This document shows, one piece after another, positions 12,196 through 50,163 of a stretch of 59,149 nucleotides of DNA. This DNA is from Deltaproteobacteria bacterium (GTDB lineage: Bacteria > Desulfobacterota > Syntrophia > Syntrophales > Smithellaceae), in NCBI GenBank assembly GCA_012729055.1, contig JAAYDW010000038.1:1-59149 (forward strand), read 5' to 3'. A model generated the notes under the pieces. That model ran no database searches and had not been told where the DNA came from. It worked only from the letters and a program-made list of their open reading frames with translations. Numbering within the stretch: the first letter of the stretch is position 1; every line of letters starts with the position of its first letter. The position numbers and the translations under genes were made by a program.

Positions 12196-13416
12196 ATGGG
12201 GTTGGTTGTTCAGAAATTTGGCGGAACATCGGTGGCGAACGTGGAAAAGATAAAAAATGTGGCGCAAAAGGCGATCCGCGAAAAGGAAGCGGGCCACGAC
12301 GTCATTGTGGTCCTGTCCGCGATGGCCGGAGAAACCAACCGGTTGATCGATCTGGCGCAAAGCGCCGCCGATTCTCCCGATGAGCGGGAATACGATTCCC
12401 TGATCTCAACGGGAGAGCAGGTGACAATCTCGCTGTTGTCGATTGTCCTCAATGCAATGGGGTACCGGGCCCGTTCCTTTCTGGGGTTTCAGGTGCGGAT
12501 TCTGACGGATAAAGCATACAAGAAAGCCCGCATTTCCATGATCGACACGAACGCCGTCTCGCAGGAATTGAAGAAAGGGACCATTGTTGTCGTCGCCGGA
12601 TTCCAGGGGGTGGATGAGGAAAACAACATCACGACGCTGGGGCGCGGCGGTTCCGACACCAGCGCGGTCGCGCTGTCTGCGGCGCTGGGCGCCGAGCGCT
12701 GCGATATTTACACGGACGTCGACGGCGTCTATACCACCGATCCCAATATCTGCGCCAACGCCAGAAGGCTCGACAGAATTTCCTACGACGAAATGCTGGA
12801 AATGGCCATGACCGGCGCCAAGGTTCTCCAGCCCCGTTCGGTGGAGATGGCCAAAAAATACGATGTGCCCGTATATGTCAAATCAACCTTTTCCGATGAA
12901 GGCGGAACACTTGTAACGAAGGAGGATGAAGAGATGGAGAGAGAAGTGCTGTCAGGAGTTACCTACGATCGCGATCAGGCGAAAATTACGGTCGTTCACA
13001 TCCCGGACAAACCGGGCATAGCGGCGAGTTTGTTTACGCCTTTGTCGGAGCGGAATATCAGCGTGGACATGATCATCCAGAACGTCAGTTTGCAGGGGTA
13101 TACGGATCTGACGTTTACCGTGTCGAAAAAGGACACGAAGGAAGCCCAGAAAATCGTGGAGGCGGCGGCTAAAGAGATCGGCGCCAAGAAAGTGGAAGTG
13201 GACGATGACGTCGCCAAGGTGTCGATCATCGGCGTCGGCATGGTCAGCCATTCCGGAGTGGCGGCAAAAATGTTCAAGACCCTGGCGGATGAGGGCATCA
13301 ATATCCAGATGATCAGCACGTCGGAAATCAAAATATCCTGTGTGATCCAGAGAAAATATACGGAACTCGCCGTGATGGTGCTCCATGATGCGTTTCATCT
13401 GGAAAGGAAAGCCTAA
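12196..13416 (+). CDS. lysC: Aspartate kinase
   Basis: Aspartate kinase phosphorylates aspartate, the first step towards lysine, threonine and methionine. The 406-residue monofunctional enzyme begins with the family signature [29 protein letters not shown] binds nucleotide and aspartate, and [10 protein letters not shown] follows. Two C-terminal ACT domains (about residues 265-400) include [12 protein letters not shown] and [15 protein letters not shown], which implies feedback control by end-product amino acids. GGGAGGA precedes the ATG. The partner genes hom and a proposed homoserine kinase lie at 46514-49069. Confidence 0.96.
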
Positions 13417-13975
13417 CCGGCAAAACATGATCGATCATCAGATCAGGGGAATTCTTTCGCTGTCCGTTTTTCTGGCGTTGATTCCCCTGATCGGCTTTCT
13501 TCTCTCCTTGCAAAGCCCCGCCCCCTGTCCGGTTCTCTCCACGGCCGGTCCCGCATTCCGGGCGGTCGAGGTTGTCCGGGACAACGGCGAAACCGGGATT
13601 TATTTCGTAAAACCGGGGACATCCGTTTCACAGTTGTTGGAAACCCTTGAAACAGAAAAGACTCCCGCCCGAAATCAAGAACTTATCGGCGGCATGAAAA
13701 TCCGCAACGTTGATCGGGGAGCGCCTTCGGAAATCCGCATCGAAAAAATGGATGCAGCAACGAGGCTGGCGCTGGGACTGCCGGTGGACATCAACACAGC
13801 CGGGTTCGCTGATCTCGTCCTGGTTCCCGGCGTGGGAGAAAAGACGGCCGACGCTATCCTGGCTCTGCGCGGGGAAAAAACCCGGTTCGGCTCGCTGGAG
13901 GAGCTGAAGGAAATCCGCGGCATCAAAGAAAAGAAGATGGAAAAGTTGAGGCCCTACCTTTGCGTCGAACCATGA
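13385..13975 (+). CDS. ComEA-like helix-hairpin-helix protein
   Basis: This is a membrane-anchored DNA-binding protein candidate. One hydrophobic segment lies near the N-terminus ([17 protein letters not shown]). The C-terminal 60 residues form the ComEA-type tandem helix-hairpin-helix, with [20 protein letters not shown] and [16 protein letters not shown]. ComEA binds incoming DNA in competence; many short homologues have no proven role. The start is uncertain. ATG at 13385 overlaps lysC by 32 bases and gives 196 residues, while ATG at 13427 gives 182 residues and avoids overlap. Confidence 0.8.
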
Positions 13976-43634: not shown

Positions 43635-45401
43635 TCAGGCGATGGCGTTGAATTTGCAAACCTGAGCACACAAACCGCAGCCGTTACAAATGGTTTCATC
43701 GATCACCGCAAGACCTTTCCGTTTGGATCCTTCCCTGGTAACACCCTCTTTCCAGGCTATCGGCGGACAATTGAGCCCCAGACAAGCCTTGCAGCCTTCG
43801 CATTTGTCCGGATCGATTTTGAGCGGCGGAACTGGCTTCATGTTCGCACGCTTGAAGAGGGCGCAGGGTCTCTGCGCAATGATCACCGAGGGACCGCTGC
43901 TGGCCAGCTCATCCTTGATCGCGATTTGAGTTTCTTTTAAGTTATTTGGATCAATAACCCTTATGTTCTCGATACCTAAAGAAGAAACTAAAACCGGTAA
44001 ATTAACTTTTTTTGCTTCTTTTCCCATCAGCGTAAAACCGGTTCCGGGATGCTCCTGCATTCCCGTCATGGCGGTAGTGCTGTTGTCCAGGATGATGATC
44101 AGCGCATCACTGTTGTTATAGGCCATGTTGAGAAGCCCCGTGATGCCTGAGTGCAGAAAGGTGGAATCACCGATGACGCCGACAACCTTGCCCTTCCCTT
44201 TTTCCTTCAACGCTTTGCTCATGCCGTGGGCCATCCCGATGCTCGCCCCCATGCAAATGCAGGAATGCAGCCCTTCCAGCGGCTTCAAATAAGACAGCGT
44301 GTAACAACCGATATCGCCGTGAACGTAAGCCTTTGATTTTTTTAGCGCATAAAACAAGCCGCGATGAGGGCAGCCGGGACAGAGATTCGGCGGCCGCAAC
44401 GCCAGGGTTTCCTTGTAGGGAGAAACGGATCCCCGCAAATCCCCGAGTATTGCATGTTTTATGATCCCCGGATCAAACTCGTTGGTGTAGGGGAAAATCT
44501 CCTTGCCCGTTACCTCAATGCCCATGGCCCGGATCTGCTCTTCCAGATACGGGTCAAGTTCTTCAATAACATAAATTTTTTTTACTTTACCGGCAAACTG
44601 TTTGATCATTTTCACCGGCAGAGGATAGACCATGCCGAGTTTGAGATAGGAATAATCCGGGAAAACATCCTTGGCATAGTTGTAAGGCATGCCGGCGGTG
44701 ATAATCCCGACTTCCGGATCGTTGATTTCCATTTTGTTTTCGGCAAACGTCTCCACAAAGCGGCGCAGCGCTCGTTCGCGCTTCTCCACTTCAACGCGCC
44801 TCATGCGGGCGTTGATGGGAACCATGACATATTTTGCAGCATGATGAGCCAATTTTGTTTTATTTTCTGGCAGATGGGAATCTTCGAGTGCGACAACCGA
44901 TTTGGAATGGGAAACGCGGGTCGTTGTCCGCAAAAAAACGGGGGTATCGAATTGTTCGCTGATCTGAAACGCCAGTTTTATAAATTCCTTGGCTTCCTGC
45001 GGATCCGCCGGTTCCAGCATAGGGATTTTGGCAAACTTGGCATAATTGCGGTTGTCCTGTTCGTTTTGCGAGCTGTGCATGGACGGATCATCAGCGCTGA
45101 TGATGACCAGGGCCCCTTCGATTCCGGTGTAGCTCACCGTGAAAATCGGATCGGCTGCGACATTGACACCGACATGCTTCATCACGGCCAAAGCCCTTGC
45201 TCCGCCGAGTGCGGCGCCGATGGCCACCTCAACCGCCACTTTTTCATTGGGGGCCCATTCCGCATAAATCCCATCGTATTTTGCAAACTGTTCCATGATT
45301 TCGGTGCTGGGTGTTCCGGGATAAGCAGCGGCAAAACGAACACCCGCTTCGTAAACGCCGCGGGCAATCGCTTCATTTCCTGACAGAAGTACTTTCTTCA
45401 A
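43635..45401 (-). CDS. iorA: Indolepyruvate ferredoxin oxidoreductase, alpha subunit
   Basis: This is a 588-residue thiamine-diphosphate enzyme. The N-terminal domain has SGNEAIARG and AYPGTPSTEI. The TPP-binding half has CPGCPHRG, then GDIGCYT, GASIGMAHG and GDSTFLHSG with Asn further on in MAYNNSDA. The C-terminal ferredoxin domain has two cysteine clusters, CEGCKACLGLNCP and CNGCGLCAQVC; the first has wider spacing than the usual CxxCxxCxxxCP. TTG at 45401 is the start, with GGAGG nine bases upstream. Confidence 0.96.
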   Translation of the reverse strand: MKKVLLSGNEAIARGVYEAGVRFAAAYPGTPSTEIMEQFAKYDGIYAEWAPNEKVAVEVAIGAALGGARALAVMKHVGVNVAADPIFTVSYTGIEGALVIISADDPSMHSSQNEQDNRNYAKFAKIPMLEPADPQEAKEFIKLAFQISEQFDTPVFLRTTTRVSHSKSVVALEDSHLPENKTKLAHHAAKYVMVPINARMRRVEVEKRERALRRFVETFAENKMEINDPEVGIITAGMPYNYAKDVFPDYSYLKLGMVYPLPVKMIKQFAGKVKKIYVIEELDPYLEEQIRAMGIEVTGKEIFPYTNEFDPGIIKHAILGDLRGSVSPYKETLALRPPNLCPGCPHRGLFYALKKSKAYVHGDIGCYTLSYLKPLEGLHSCICMGASIGMAHGMSKALKEKGKGKVVGVIGDSTFLHSGITGLLNMAYNNSDALIIILDNSTTAMTGMQEHPGTGFTLMGKEAKKVNLPVLVSSLGIENIRVIDPNNLKETQIAIKDELASSGPSVIIAQRPCALFKRANMKPVPPLKIDPDKCEGCKACLGLNCPPIAWKEGVTREGSKRKGLAVIDETICNGCGLCAQVCKFNAIA

Positions 45402-45422
45402 ATGGATTAGCCTCCGTAAAAA

Positions 45423-46103
45423 TTAGCTCAGAGCGGATATTTTACGTTTGAGGAGAAGGGTCGCCGAGGGTTCGGTTGTTTTCTCCAACGCTTTTGTATA
45501 ATATTCCAGAGCTTTTTCCTTGTTGTTTAATGCTTCGTAAGCGCGGGCAATATTTCGCAGGCTGATAGATTCAAACCCCGTATTATAAACGTTTTGCGCC
45601 TGCTCAAAATATTTGAGGGCTTCCTTGAAATCCTTTTTGGCTTCATAGGCGTAGCCCAGGGATGTCAGCGCCAGGAATTTGAGTCCCGTTTTGTCAGACC
45701 CTGTTTTACCGGCAAATTTCGAATAGGATTTGATGGCCTTGTCGAGTTCCCCTTTACCGTAGTAGATATTGCCCAGATGATAGTAGGCCATCCGTCCGCT
45801 TAAACTATAGGGATATTTTTCAATTAGTTCATTGAAGATTTTAATATTTTCGTCTGCGGTTTGCGGTGTGTCGCCGCTTCTGAGGATATTGCCCTGCGCC
45901 TTGGCGTAAAGCTTCAGGGCCGAGTTCGTGTAATAGCTCCAGTAAAAATAAATTCCCAGCGCAACCAGCACGGCGCAGGCGAAAGCCACGACAACGACCA
46001 TCACCCGGGTCTTGTTATCGGAAACATAGTCGCCGACCCTTTCGAAGGTTGATTGAAACGCATCGGGACTTTTCAGTTCTTTTTTTGATAATTTAGCGGC
46101 CAT
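45423..46103 (-). CDS. Membrane-anchored TPR protein
   Basis: This is a 226-residue protein with a cytoplasmic N-terminus, one membrane helix at about residues 33-55, and three to four tetratricopeptide repeats outside (for example YYHLGNIYYGKGELDKAIKSY, core NIYYGKGELDKAI, and AYEALNNKEKALEYYTKALE). This layout recalls YfgM/BamD-like periplasmic adaptors. ATG 46103 is chosen for the GGGGAAG ribosome site; an upstream in-frame start at 46148 would overlap the thioesterase more deeply. Its function is unknown. Confidence 0.82.
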   Translation of the reverse strand: MAAKLSKKELKSPDAFQSTFERVGDYVSDNKTRVMVVVVAFACAVLVALGIYFYWSYYTNSALKLYAKAQGNILRSGDTPQTADENIKIFNELIEKYPYSLSGRMAYYHLGNIYYGKGELDKAIKSYSKFAGKTGSDKTGLKFLALTSLGYAYEAKKDFKEALKYFEQAQNVYNTGFESISLRNIARAYEALNNKEKALEYYTKALEKTTEPSATLLLKRKISALS

Positions 46104-46524
46104 ATTCTTCCCCTTTTTTAATATCATATTTGTTCGCGAGATCGACAATCACCTGCGGCATGCGGCGGATTTTGCCTTCCCGGTTGGTGCAGGCGTGAAT
46201 CGTGTATCCTTCCGCATGAAGTTTTTGCCGGTTTTCATCCCATATTTTGGAATTGAACTTAATGCTCGCCCTTTTGATGTAATCGAACGCCGTTTCAACC
46301 GTCACGAGTTGATCGTATTTAGCGGGGGCAAGATAATGGCAGGATACCTTGGTCAGTGGCAGATTGAGCCCCAATTTTTCAAGTTCCGTGTAGGAGACGC
46401 CAAGTTGCCGCATCAGTTCATTTCTGCCCAACTCGAACCAGCGGATGTAGTTGGTATGATAGACGATGCCCATTGCATCAGTGTCGGCGTAGATGATCCG
46501 GACCTGTGTAAAGTTACTGAGCAA
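46093..46524 (-). CDS. Acyl-CoA thioesterase, YbgC/4HBT type
   Basis: This is a 143-residue hotdog-fold thioesterase. The active-site motif is YADTDAMGIVYHTNYIRWFE, whose core DTDAMGIVYHTNY holds the catalytic Asp of 4-hydroxybenzoyl-CoA thioesterases. The length fits. The substrate may be an acyl-CoA made by nearby IorAB or an acyl carrier protein; both are inferences. It overlaps the genes on both sides by 11 bases, so it sits firmly in the hom operon. Confidence 0.9.
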   Translation of the reverse strand: MLSNFTQVRIIYADTDAMGIVYHTNYIRWFELGRNELMRQLGVSYTELEKLGLNLPLTKVSCHYLAPAKYDQLVTVETAFDYIKRASIKFNSKIWDENRQKLHAEGYTIHACTNREGKIRRMPQVIVDLANKYDIKKGEEYGR

Positions 46525-47740
46525 GGAATGCCCCCCAGTTCTTTATGAAATTGTCCATGAGCAAATGACCGGGTGAAACTACGATGCCGGTTTTCCGGGC
46601 GCAGGCTTCCGTGAAAGGCGACCCCGAAGCCTTGTTTTCCTCGTTGCGTGAGGATAAAACGGCAAAAGGACTGGGATCGCCTACATGCGTCTTCAGGTCG
46701 ATCGGTGTCGGATGATCGCTCAAGGCCAGGATGCGGTATTCGCCCAGAGATCCGATGTTGGTGAGTATGGGACCGACGATCTTTTCGTCGAAAAATTCGA
46801 TGGCCTGAATTTTTCCCGCGGCATTGCCTTCGTGCCCCATTTCATCGGGCGCCTCCAGATGAAGAAAAACAAAATCCATGAATTTCAGGGCATCGAGCGC
46901 CATTTTAGCCTTGCCCTCGTAGTTGGTGTCGATGTACCCGGTGGCTCCTTCCACCGTCAGGGGCTGCAGGCCGGCATTGACGCCCAGACCTTTGAGAAGA
47001 TCGACGGCGGAAATCATTCCGCCCCTGAAATCGTATTTTTGCGTCAAAGGCACAATCTGCGGTTTCCTCCCCTGCCCCCAGAGCCAGATGGAATTGGCCT
47101 GCTTTTTTCCGGCCGCCAGTCGCTGTGCGTTCACCGGATGGTCTTTCAGTACACGCGCGGCTTTCTGCATCAGGTCATGAACTTCCGCAGCGTAATCGCC
47201 GGCGGGCAGATAGGCGGCAATGGCCTTTCCGGGGATATCGTGAGGCGGCGTAGTTTGCGGCGACCCGGCGGCGTTGCGCCACACGAGCAAATGACGGTAG
47301 CCGACGCCGGGATAAAATTGCAGTTGGGAAGATCCGATTTTTGCGTTGATCTCCAGAATCATTTCTCCGGCTTCGGCCGAAGAAATATGTCCGGCTGTAA
47401 AATCGTCCATAAAAGCTTGGTCTGAGTCCTGTTCGCCGATGGAAACCAGGTTGCAGCGGTAGGCGACATCATCGGCGCCAAGCCCAATGCCCATGCTGGC
47501 GGCCTCCAGCGGCCCCCGACCTGTATAGGTTTCTTCGGGATTGTAGCCCAGCACGCTCAGGTTGGCCACATCGGAACCGGGGGTTAACCCTTCGGGGATG
47601 GTGTTTACCAATCCCAGTGTGCCCTGTGCGGCAATCTGATCGAGGAAAGGCGTGAGAGCGCATTCGAGCGGTGTTTTCCCTCCGAGCTGCGCACTCGGAT
47701 AATCCGCCATGCCGTCGCCCAGTAATACAACATATTTCAT
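46514..47740 (-). CDS. ApgM-like protein, proposed homoserine kinase
   Basis: This is a 408-residue member of the alkaline-phosphatase/phosphoglycerate-mutase superfamily. VLLGDGMADYP provides the first metal site, then TPGSDVANLSVLGY with a Ser nucleophile candidate, GRGPLEAAS, EAPDEMGHEG and ALSDHPTPI, where the Asp-His pair binds metal. Archaeal ApgM converts 3- and 2-phosphoglycerate. A subgroup found next to hom in bacteria without thrB has been proposed as an alternative homoserine kinase (TIGR02535, from memory). The gene directly follows hom by 21 bases, which favours that role. Confidence 0.88.
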   Translation of the reverse strand: MKYVVLLGDGMADYPSAQLGGKTPLECALTPFLDQIAAQGTLGLVNTIPEGLTPGSDVANLSVLGYNPEETYTGRGPLEAASMGIGLGADDVAYRCNLVSIGEQDSDQAFMDDFTAGHISSAEAGEMILEINAKIGSSQLQFYPGVGYRHLLVWRNAAGSPQTTPPHDIPGKAIAAYLPAGDYAAEVHDLMQKAARVLKDHPVNAQRLAAGKKQANSIWLWGQGRKPQIVPLTQKYDFRGGMISAVDLLKGLGVNAGLQPLTVEGATGYIDTNYEGKAKMALDALKFMDFVFLHLEAPDEMGHEGNAAGKIQAIEFFDEKIVGPILTNIGSLGEYRILALSDHPTPIDLKTHVGDPSPFAVLSSRNEENKASGSPFTEACARKTGIVVSPGHLLMDNFIKNWGAFLAQ

Positions 47741-47761
47741 ATTTGTTCCTTAGCGTTAAAG

Positions 47762-49069
47762 CTATAATTCGTCTTCGATGCGGATGATGACGGTCTTGTC
47801 CTTCACAACGTCCAGCCGGTCGATTTTTTTGAGCGCCTGGCGAACGTCCTTTTCTCTGGCTTTATAGGTGGTCATGACAATCGGAACAGGTCCCGCCTCT
47901 TCCCTTGCTTTCTGGATAACGGTAGCCAGGCTGATGTTGTAGCGGCCGAGGATGCCGGAGATTTTGGACAAAACACCGGGACGGTCCAGCACAGAAAAAC
48001 GGAAATAGTATTTGGTTTCAATGTCGTCCATCGGAATCAGACGGATGTCCTTCATTTCCGTCTCGTTGATGGAGCGCAGCGGCACCCGTCCGGAGATGCC
48101 GTGCAGAACATTGCGGGCGCAGTCGATGATGTCGCTGAACACCGCGCTGGCCGTAGGCATCATTCCGGCTCCCTGTCCGAAAAGAAAGACGGGCCCGGAA
48201 GCGTCCCCCACAAGGTGAAACGCGTTGTAATTGCGGTTGACGTTTGCGAGCAGATGCCCCGATTCGATCATGGTCGGGTGAATCCTGGCTTCCACCGCCT
48301 CTCCCTTGAGCATGCCGATGGCCAGGAGCTTGATCCGGTAGCCCAGCTCTCTGGCAAAGGCGATGTCCAGCGCGCTGACCTTGGTGATGCCTTCCAGATA
48401 TATTTTTTTCAGGTTGACCTTATTCCCGTAGGCCAGTGACAGCACGATGGCCATTTTATGGGAGGTATCGATGCCTTCAATGTCAAACGTCGGATCCGCC
48501 TCGGCAAAACCCAGCTCTTGGGCTTCTTTTAAAACCACGTCAAAGGGCTTCCCTTCATCGGTCATCTTGGTCAGGATGAAGTTGCAAGTCCCGTTCATGA
48601 TGCCGACGATGGAATTGATTTTATTGGCGACCAGCGCTTCCTTCAGGGTTTTGATGATGGGAATGGTCCCGCCGACACTGGCCTCGAATCCGACATCCAC
48701 TCCGCGACGCTGGGCGGCTGGAAAAATTTCATTGCCGTACGTCGCCAGCATGGCCTTGTTGGCGGTGACGACATGCTTGCCCTTTTGAATGGCTTCCAGG
48801 ACGAATGTCCTGGCCGGTTCGTAACCGCCCATCAATTCAATAACGATGGATATGTCCGGATCGTTGAGGATGTCCCGCGCATCCGTTGTGAACACGTTGC
48901 GATCAATTTTTATCCTGCGCGGCGCCGTGATATTGATATCGGCAATCCGCTTTAAGACAAGCCTGGCGCCGAGTTTCTGCGTAATGAGTTTTTCGTTTTG
49001 CTGCAACAGTTTGACCACGCCGGTGCCGATGTTGCCCATGCCTATCAAACCGATCGAGATTTTTTTCAT
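47762..49069 (-). CDS. hom: Homoserine dehydrogenase
   Basis: Hom reduces aspartate semialdehyde to homoserine. The 435-residue monofunctional enzyme begins with the Rossmann motif GLIGMGNIGTGVV. GTCNFILTKMTDEG and EADPTFDIEGIDTSHK are catalytic and substrate-binding stretches. A C-terminal ACT domain (about residues 350-430, DRPGVLSKISGILG) implies threonine feedback. It heads a probable seven-gene minus-strand operon through dnaJ-like and has a good promoter upstream. lysC is elsewhere, at 12196. Confidence 0.97.
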   Translation of the reverse strand: MKKISIGLIGMGNIGTGVVKLLQQNEKLITQKLGARLVLKRIADINITAPRRIKIDRNVFTTDARDILNDPDISIVIELMGGYEPARTFVLEAIQKGKHVVTANKAMLATYGNEIFPAAQRRGVDVGFEASVGGTIPIIKTLKEALVANKINSIVGIMNGTCNFILTKMTDEGKPFDVVLKEAQELGFAEADPTFDIEGIDTSHKMAIVLSLAYGNKVNLKKIYLEGITKVSALDIAFARELGYRIKLLAIGMLKGEAVEARIHPTMIESGHLLANVNRNYNAFHLVGDASGPVFLFGQGAGMMPTASAVFSDIIDCARNVLHGISGRVPLRSINETEMKDIRLIPMDDIETKYYFRFSVLDRPGVLSKISGILGRYNISLATVIQKAREEAGPVPIVMTTYKAREKDVRQALKKIDRLDVVKDKTVIIRIEDEL

Positions 49070-49142
49070 TGTTTTGCTCCGCCTTTATTCCCCAAAATCA
49101 ATTAATAACCTCATTTTCAATCCCGTTTTTCAATGGGTGATA

Positions 49143-49170
49143 CCTATAACAAACGCCGTGAGTTTGTCAA
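49143..49170 (-). promoter_or_regulatory. Promoter of the hom operon
   Basis: On the minus strand, a perfect TTGACA (49170-49165) and TATAGG (49148-49143) lie 16 bases apart, about 73 bases before the hom start. Confidence 0.6.
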
Positions 49171-49245
49171 ACAGATATGCTGATGATCCGCATGGAAAGA
49201 TCAACCGGTCTGTGCGCGAAGCGCCGTGAAAATACGGAGGGTTTT

Positions 49246-50163
49246 TTATTCGTCCAATTGCCGCAGAACTTCGTCGTGGAGCGGCGTGGGAATTCCCGTT
49301 TCCCGGCCTTTCCGGCACAGGTAAGCGGTCAGTGTGTCCACTTCCGTTTTGTTGCCTCTTTCCCGGTCCAGCTGCATTGAAGTTTTGGCGTCGAAGCTGA
49401 AACGGCCGATCATGTCCATCGTTTTTTCAACCGCATCCGCCGGAAGGCGGATATGCAGGGCCTTTGCCACCGCTGTGACTTCGCGCATCAGCCCCGCAAG
49501 GCGGTTGCGGAGATCCTCATCCTGCAGGATCCGTCCGTAGGTTTGTCCCGTCGCGGCCGTGAGCGATCCCAGCGGGCACATCATCAGGTATTTTTTCCAG
49601 AGGATGTCGGTTATATGGTCGGATAAGTGCGCGTCGATTCCCGATTCCACAAGAAGCTGCAAAATGGGAGTATAGCGGCTTACGGTTTGCGGATCGTCTG
49701 TGCCGAATGTCAAACGGCAGGCGCCCTGCGTCTGGATAACGACGCCGGGTTTTTCAATAAAGGTGATGATGTACACGCTTCCGCTCACGATATCCGCTTC
49801 CGGAAGAACGGCGCTGAGGCGCAGAGCGCTGTCCACGCCGTTGAGAAGAGGAATAACGACCGTGCGGCGGCTGATGTTTTCTTTGAGCCGCCGGGCCGCG
49901 TCTTCCAGAGAGTAGCTCTTGACGCAAAAAAAGACGAGGTCGAAGATACCGTGTTCCGACGGATCATCGGTCGCAACATTCGGCCAGGCGATGTATACGC
50001 CTTCCCGCGTGTAAAGCTGAAGGCCGTTTTTCTGGATTTTCCGCAGGTGCTCCCCTCTGGCGATGAAGATGATTTCGTGCATTCCCGACGATGCGTATCG
50101 TCCCGCCAGTTTTCCGCCGAAATACCCCCCTACTCCACCGATGCCGACAATTGCGATTCTCAT
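49246..50163 (-). CDS. panE: 2-dehydropantoate 2-reductase
   Basis: This is a 305-residue ketopantoate reductase (or a close homologue), reducing ketopantoate to pantoate with NADPH. The N-terminal GIGGVGGYFGGKLA has the dinucleotide motif. WKKYLMMCPLGSLTAATG carries the catalytic Lys region, and the C-terminal SFDAKTSMQLDRERGNKTEVD segment (core KTSMQLDRERGNKTEVD) holds the conserved Asn/Ser/Glu set. The family includes paralogues with other 2-oxo acids, so the symbol is likely but not certain. It is not next to panB. Confidence 0.88.
   Translation of the reverse strand: MRIAIVGIGGVGGYFGGKLAGRYASSGMHEIIFIARGEHLRKIQKNGLQLYTREGVYIAWPNVATDDPSEHGIFDLVFFCVKSYSLEDAARRLKENISRRTVVIPLLNGVDSALRLSAVLPEADIVSGSVYIITFIEKPGVVIQTQGACRLTFGTDDPQTVSRYTPILQLLVESGIDAHLSDHITDILWKKYLMMCPLGSLTAATGQTYGRILQDEDLRNRLAGLMREVTAVAKALHIRLPADAVEKTMDMIGRFSFDAKTSMQLDRERGNKTEVDTLTAYLCRKGRETGIPTPLHDEVLRQLDE

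Follow-up and report, generated by a model that had tools for sequence, protein, structure and literature searches.

What phosphorylates homoserine in a bacterium that has a threonine synthase (ThrC) and lacks a recognised homoserine kinase ThrB? Few enzymes of amino acid pathways are missing without explanation as often as homoserine kinase, and the question is raised here by a contig of 59,149 nucleotides from a deltaproteobacterium of the Smithellaceae (JAAYDW010000038.1 of assembly GCA_012729055.1; the whole stretch is called the window below). On its minus strand, a gene for a 408-residue protein resembling the phosphoglycerate mutase ApgM (46514-47740) follows the homoserine dehydrogenase gene hom (47762-49069), and the initial annotation proposed it as a candidate alternative homoserine kinase. 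Our analysis supports this proposal and does not prove it. Judging from sequence comparison, we suggest that the product is probably a phosphotransferase of the TIGR02535/ThrB2 family that supplies O-phosphohomoserine to ThrC in place of the missing ThrB. This reading is based on the position behind hom, the family, the conserved nucleophile and metal-site residues, the absence of three homoserine kinase families over their cut-offs, and the presence of ThrC and of other phosphoglycerate mutases. The idea is already published and the gene is another member of a known candidate family; what is added here is a clean genome-level test, counts across the phylum and an invariant residue signature.

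Linkage to hom and family of the protein

Both open reading frames (ORFs) and the gap of 21 bases between them are as the initial annotation described. The upstream ORF encodes a homoserine dehydrogenase of 435 amino acids with a C-terminal ACT domain (PRK06349, 533.2 bits against a cut-off of 205; Pfam Homoserine_dh, NAD_binding_3 and ACT). An AAGGA stretch resembling a ribosome-binding site can be read by eye in the spacer (47741-47761, minus strand). A promoter or terminator separating hom from the apgM-like gene was considered and rejected, as the 21-base gap holds none. Over positions 45300-49400 there were five promoter-like sites (2.8 expected, standard deviation 1.3) and six terminator-like sites (6.9 expected).

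The linkage to hom had been called notable, and other genomes bear this out. In the following, G-numbers denote genomes (G000 being the source of the window) and L-numbers the loci compared; the locus counts refer to 80 loci of named genomes, the best 80 of 566 confirmed, among which close relatives are over-represented. In 59 of the best 80 loci a hom gene precedes the TIGR02535 gene on the same strand, as it does in all of the 35 first-listed ones (L021-L055), where the gaps, extrapolated from BLAST ends, are about 3-137 bases. In eight of the 80, thrC is directly upstream (family-tested in L056 only), and hom or thrC is near the TIGR02535 gene in 64. The 16 loci with neither gene comprise 11 from Firmicutes, three that start less than 1 kb from a contig end (L067, L075 and L080) and two to which neither applies (L065 and L093). 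The closest named loci belong to metagenome-assembled genomes (MAGs) of Smithellaceae and Syntrophaceae, with L021 at 84% identity. Given this conservation across loci, the adjacency of hom and the apgM-like gene is not a product of chance.

In the NCBIfam scan, the protein passed the curated cut-off of TIGR02535, "proposed homoserine kinase" (521.6 bits against 446.3), an accession that had been cited correctly, as well as those of PRK04200 (546.4 against 426) and TIGR00306, apgM (506.6 against 320). It remained far below the cut-offs of the phosphoglycerate mutase model PRK04024 (290 against 489 bits) and the PhpG model NF038358 (216.4 against 545). Pfam at E 0.001 returned PhosphMutase and Metalloenzyme and nothing else, and thus no GHMP kinase domain. 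The AlphaFold2 model (predicted local distance difference test, pLDDT, 95.9; predicted template modelling score, pTM, 0.90) was aligned by VIA-align with 2zkt_B from P. horikoshii at Z 46.3 (root-mean-square deviation 2.3 over 368 residues), with 3kd8_A at Z 33.8 and with GpmI structures at Z of about 20-21. According to the model and the alignment, the protein has the alkaline-phosphatase-superfamily fold with a serine nucleophile and a two-metal site.

The function suggested by the family name has some experimental background. The TIGRFam curators suggested that TIGR02535 is a homoserine kinase whose donor could be, for example, phosphoenolpyruvate (PEP), and mutants of the member BT2402 of Bacteroides thetaiotaomicron require threonine in minimal medium and are rescued by it (PMC7311316). 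The same source counted 29 organisms seemingly without ThrB among 148 growing without amino acids, and 15 of the 29 had TIGR02535. In the literature searched, outside which most subscription journals lie, we found no TIGR02535 protein whose activity had been assayed directly. The same scans could also describe an ordinary cofactor-independent phosphoglycerate mutase (iPGM) whose place behind hom is incidental, since the PRK04200 and apgM names are over cut-off, the close structural match 2zkt_B is named a phosphoglycerate mutase in the PDB, and the catalytic residues are conserved. The other mutases and kinases of the genome bear on this alternative.

Kinases and mutases in the genome and its relatives

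The genome G000 (Syntrophales; 3.36 Mb in 113 contigs; listed completeness 100%, contamination 1.15%) provides a clean test, with three homoserine kinase families absent over cut-off, ThrC present and other mutases present. ThrB (TIGR00191) had no match over cut-off in it. A GHMP match of 38.6 bits, the best to TIGR00191, was considered as a diverged ThrB and rejected, because it is IspE (TIGR00154, 228.3 bits). The alternative family thrB_alt (TIGR00938) had no match in G000. For the shikimate-kinase-type (SK-type) homoserine kinase, the best match to NF040667 reached 99.5 bits against a cut-off of 197; the genome has one shikimate kinase domain, its gene adjoins aroC, and the product is presumably AroK. 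We therefore rejected the idea that this single kinase doubles as the homoserine kinase, though it may have a second activity. ThrC is present (239.2-240.3 bits), encoded on a contig other than that of hom. Within the window, tblastn at E 1e-3 gave no match for ThrB, IspE, ThrC and SK-type queries and matched LysC alone, in agreement with the annotated lack of thrB.

Two further GpmI-type genes were found in G000, one canonical (422.8 bits; 591.3 bits to the Leishmania structure 3igy) and one circularly permuted (464.1 bits). The initial annotation would have been contradicted by a ThrB elsewhere in the genome together with the lack of any other phosphoglycerate mutase, and the genome holds the reverse. 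These two genes argue against an ordinary mutase behind hom, and so do the relatives. In a close set of 59 genomes, our own included, TIGR02535 was over cut-off in 48 and ThrC in 54; ThrB and thrB_alt were over cut-off in none, with weak thrB_alt matches in 12. Among the 48, canonical GpmI or GpmA was over cut-off in 25, and another 18 have a second ApgM, making 43. A second ApgM was counted from about 100 bits upwards and is a mutase by annotation; the 18 include the diverged L110 protein of G040 and a match in G028 that is broken into two pieces. GpmI is missing and GpmA present in G047 and G055. Moreover, in 21 deltaproteobacterial genomes, 11 of which had the archaeal-type iPGM, this enzyme was the sole phosphoglycerate mutase in none (PMC2964296). 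On the other side, four more of the 48 have the permuted GpmI as their sole other mutase, and in G033 (87% complete, TIGR02535 present) no other one was detected. On balance, we consider it unlikely that the protein is an ordinary phosphoglycerate mutase.

Both GpmI-type genes have features of their own. The canonical one (L102:2235-3881) is of the trypanosomatid type, with 591 bits to Leishmania 3igy against 338 to Bacillus 1ejj. In the permuted one (L103:1808-3466, minus strand, corresponding to about 12322-13866 of G000:C4), one open frame encodes profile positions 214-504 ahead of about 2-212, as in all 19 genes read (L103 and L121-L138); query residues 309-514 match 6-211 of 1ejj. All 19 carry MLGRRGE where the canonical GpmI of G000 has LDGRD. 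The AlphaFold2 model of the permuted protein has a pLDDT of 82.9, and such genes occur in 35 of the 59 genomes, own included, as judged by two-piece rows. Literature joining circular permutation with phosphoglycerate mutase was represented, among the matches listed, only by PMC11046441, a review on alpha-glucans.

In the phylum set of 198 genomes, TIGR02535 was over cut-off in 163 and ThrB in two. NF040667 was over cut-off in nine, seven of them without TIGR02535. We used this model, named hom_kin_desulfo and on that account taken to represent DvMF_0971, because counts of the shikimate kinase domain PF01202 (194 of 198 genomes) were too unspecific. At a threshold of at least 150 bits, which is our own and below the curated 197, an SK-type candidate was found in 36 genomes, and more often where TIGR02535 is missing: 13 of the 26 without TIGR02535 and 23 of the 172 with it (Fisher p 6e-5, uncorrected for phylogeny, so that independence is overstated among related genomes). 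Absence of TIGR02535 here means no match or a best E above 1e-60, and the fragmentary G167, G193, G198 and G243 were counted as present.

Of the 26 genomes lacking TIGR02535, the other 13 had neither ThrB over cut-off nor an SK-type match of 150 bits (thrB_alt was not searched there), which makes it probable that there are homoserine kinases still to be recognised, or auxotrophs. Such cases are considered probable in other bacteria too (PMC5764234, PMC7311316). It could thus be argued that an unrecognised kinase elsewhere phosphorylates homoserine in our genome and that the TIGR02535 protein does something else. However, the conserved linkage to hom or thrC and the threonine phenotype of BT2402 make this very unlikely.

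Residue signature and proposed mechanism

We aligned 90 TIGR02535 sequences, leaving out of 91 only L084, whose ORF is cut at 308 amino acids. For comparison we used 10 mutase-type rows, namely 2zkt, 3kd8 and eight of PRK04135 type. Of these eight, L106 and L113 were assigned from family scans, L108, L112, L114 and L120 from their place in the tree, and L107 and L111 from similarity. D9, D299, H303, D342, H343 and H352 are invariant in the 90 rows, and at position 56 there are 87 rows with S and three with T; following work on iPGM, we take these seven positions to be the nucleophile and metal-site residues. R75, R95, N97 and R149 are common to the TIGR02535 protein and the 10 mutase-type rows. 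The mutase-type rows share R/R/R at positions 114/115/118 (DRRAGR, 10 of 10), R at 221 (10 of 10), K at 296 and H at 148 (10 of 10). By comparison, K or R occurs at 114/115/118 in none of the 90 TIGR02535 rows, and all 90 have W at 221, E at 296 and Y at 148; our protein has F114/T115/H118, W221 and E296. K296 is found in all 12 outgroup rows, that is, the 10 mutase-type rows and L109 and L110. The lack of R/R/R, R and K in all 90 rows speaks further against an ordinary mutase. In a midpoint-rooted tree of 46 rows, the 36 TIGR02535 rows included (of 90) formed one group on a long branch with 100/100 support; the program flagged long branches that meet.

L109 (2022-3320, minus strand) and L110 (1949-3250, minus strand) encode diverged ApgM-like proteins without R95 and N97. 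Each gene adjoins an ORF of about 195 amino acids with an HGRFQ..H.DH motif, which by eye resembles a nucleotidyltransferase. To us, this pair of genes recalls PhpF/PhpG of phosphonate pathways.

From position and charge, the lost basic residues would be those that bind phosphoglycerate, and the new ones would bind homoserine. We suggest a mechanism in which Ser56 would be phosphorylated by a donor and the phosphate then passed to homoserine at the two-metal site. R75, R95 and R149 may hold the phosphate or carboxylate of the donor, and Y148, W219, W221, E296 and the D[FY][ST]AGH loop would suit a smaller, amino-bearing acceptor. Because Pfam shows no nucleotide-kinase domain, a phosphomonoester donor (PEP or phosphoglycerate) is as likely as ATP. 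A bolder version, which we put forward tentatively and regard as rather doubtful, is that TIGR02535 proteins have the phosphoglycerate mutase fold and transfer phosphate to homoserine from a phosphomonoester (PEP or a phosphoglycerate), not from ATP, and that they are the normal threonine-pathway enzyme in most Desulfobacterota-type bacteria. The signature offers mutations to try and a possible way to split both functions in annotation, in which PRK04200 labels such proteins phosphoglycerate mutase.

Second candidates, neighbouring genes and known systems

Several observations weigh against a role of TIGR02535 proteins as the homoserine kinase. The two genomes of the phylum set with ThrB over cut-off, G062 and G064, both carry TIGR02535 as well, and each has another candidate mutase of the same superfamily. 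In G064 the TIGR02535 gene (L117:2781-6450) is followed by a family-tested pyrG and then kdsA, and in G062 (L118:3763-7817) by an ORF that by eye resembles pyrG. Both proteins show the same signature at 114/115/118, 221 and 296, and we therefore rejected it as a separator of ThrB-bearing from ThrB-lacking genomes. A Peptococcaceae MAG has hom, a ThrB homologue (42% identity to ThrB of G064), a family-tested lysC and an apgM-like TIGR02535 gene in a row (L100:2533-7209). In Clostridium sp. MCC353 (L086:5472-7209), a shikimate-kinase-like gene lies just upstream of the TIGR02535 gene, and its best model is the homoserine kinase NF040667 (174.1 bits, cut-off 197). G094 has a ThrB-like match of 152.1 bits, below the cut-off of 168.25. 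To these are added the 23 of 172 TIGR02535 genomes that also have an SK-type candidate of at least 150 bits, and two of the nine with NF040667 over cut-off, which carry TIGR02535. Finally, an E. coli thrB strain was not rescued by BT2402, according to a personal communication in PMC7311316. If the donor is a phosphomonoester, an unsuitable metal, donor concentration or partner would account for this failure. As a separate observation, the TIGR02535 gene of L065 (6001-8840) also adjoins a family-tested pyrG.

The genomes with both enzymes may reflect redundancy, a further related activity (for example that of a threonine kinase) or an error in the proposal. The protein might thus act in or near the threonine pathway and not as the main homoserine kinase, either as a threonine kinase for the corrinoid side chain or as a second phosphotransferase beside ThrB. 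The gene row of L100 fits this view, and in G062 and G064 the need for a mutase does not account for the second gene, as another candidate mutase is there. Dehre_1608, in a corrinoid operon, has been proposed as a threonine kinase (PMC4285132), and the failed rescue by BT2402 points the same way. However, three homoserine kinase families are absent over cut-off in G000 despite its ThrC, and the rescue of BT2402 mutants by threonine fits a step before threonine (PMC7311316). We hold such a side role to be quite unlikely, and prefer the supply of O-phosphohomoserine to ThrC.

The remaining genes near hom are of less direct interest. The stop of the apgM-like gene overlaps by 11 bases an ORF for a YbgC/FadM-type thioesterase (46093-46524, minus strand, TTG start as listed), which is perhaps co-transcribed with it; a link to threonine is not evident. 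Family scans identified further downstream in the same gene run a TPR-repeat protein, an ordinary neighbour (45423-46148, minus strand), and upstream of hom, after a gap of 176 bases, a 2-dehydropantoate 2-reductase gene (panE/apbA-like; 49246-50163, minus strand). The lysC-like aspartate kinase gene is distant, as had been annotated: the sole match, obtained by tblastn with LysC of L100 (51% identity, E 1e-129), extends over 12202-13404 of the plus strand, about 33 kb from hom.

Among known systems, our gene is most like that of BT2402, with which it shares the family, the link to hom, the lack of ThrB over cut-off and the presence of another phosphoglycerate mutase. BT2402 has been termed an alternative homoserine kinase with conserved zinc sites (PMC9765024). 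ThrB2 is reported in 300 gut genomes, of which 278 have no thrB, and in most Bacteroidetes its gene is accompanied by thrC and an asd-hom fusion (PMC9026213). In contrast, our gene stands behind a stand-alone hom and before ybgC, with thrC on another contig. The archaeal-type iPGM (2zkt of P. horikoshii, 3kd8 of T. acidophilum) and the PRK04135 group have the same fold, nucleophile and most metal-site residues, but our protein belongs to a separate clade and lacks the equivalents of R114/R115/R118, R221 and K296. PhpG, a phosphonoformyl transferase (NF038358), is an ApgM relative with another reaction, and our protein is far below its cut-off. With the GHMP homoserine kinase ThrB (TIGR00191), it has the proposed reaction alone in common, as it contains no GHMP domain. 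DvMF_0971 of Desulfovibrio, which rescues E. coli thrB (PMC5764234), is likewise a replacement of ThrB, but it comes from the shikimate kinase family, to whose homoserine kinase model G000 offers only the 99.5-bit match.

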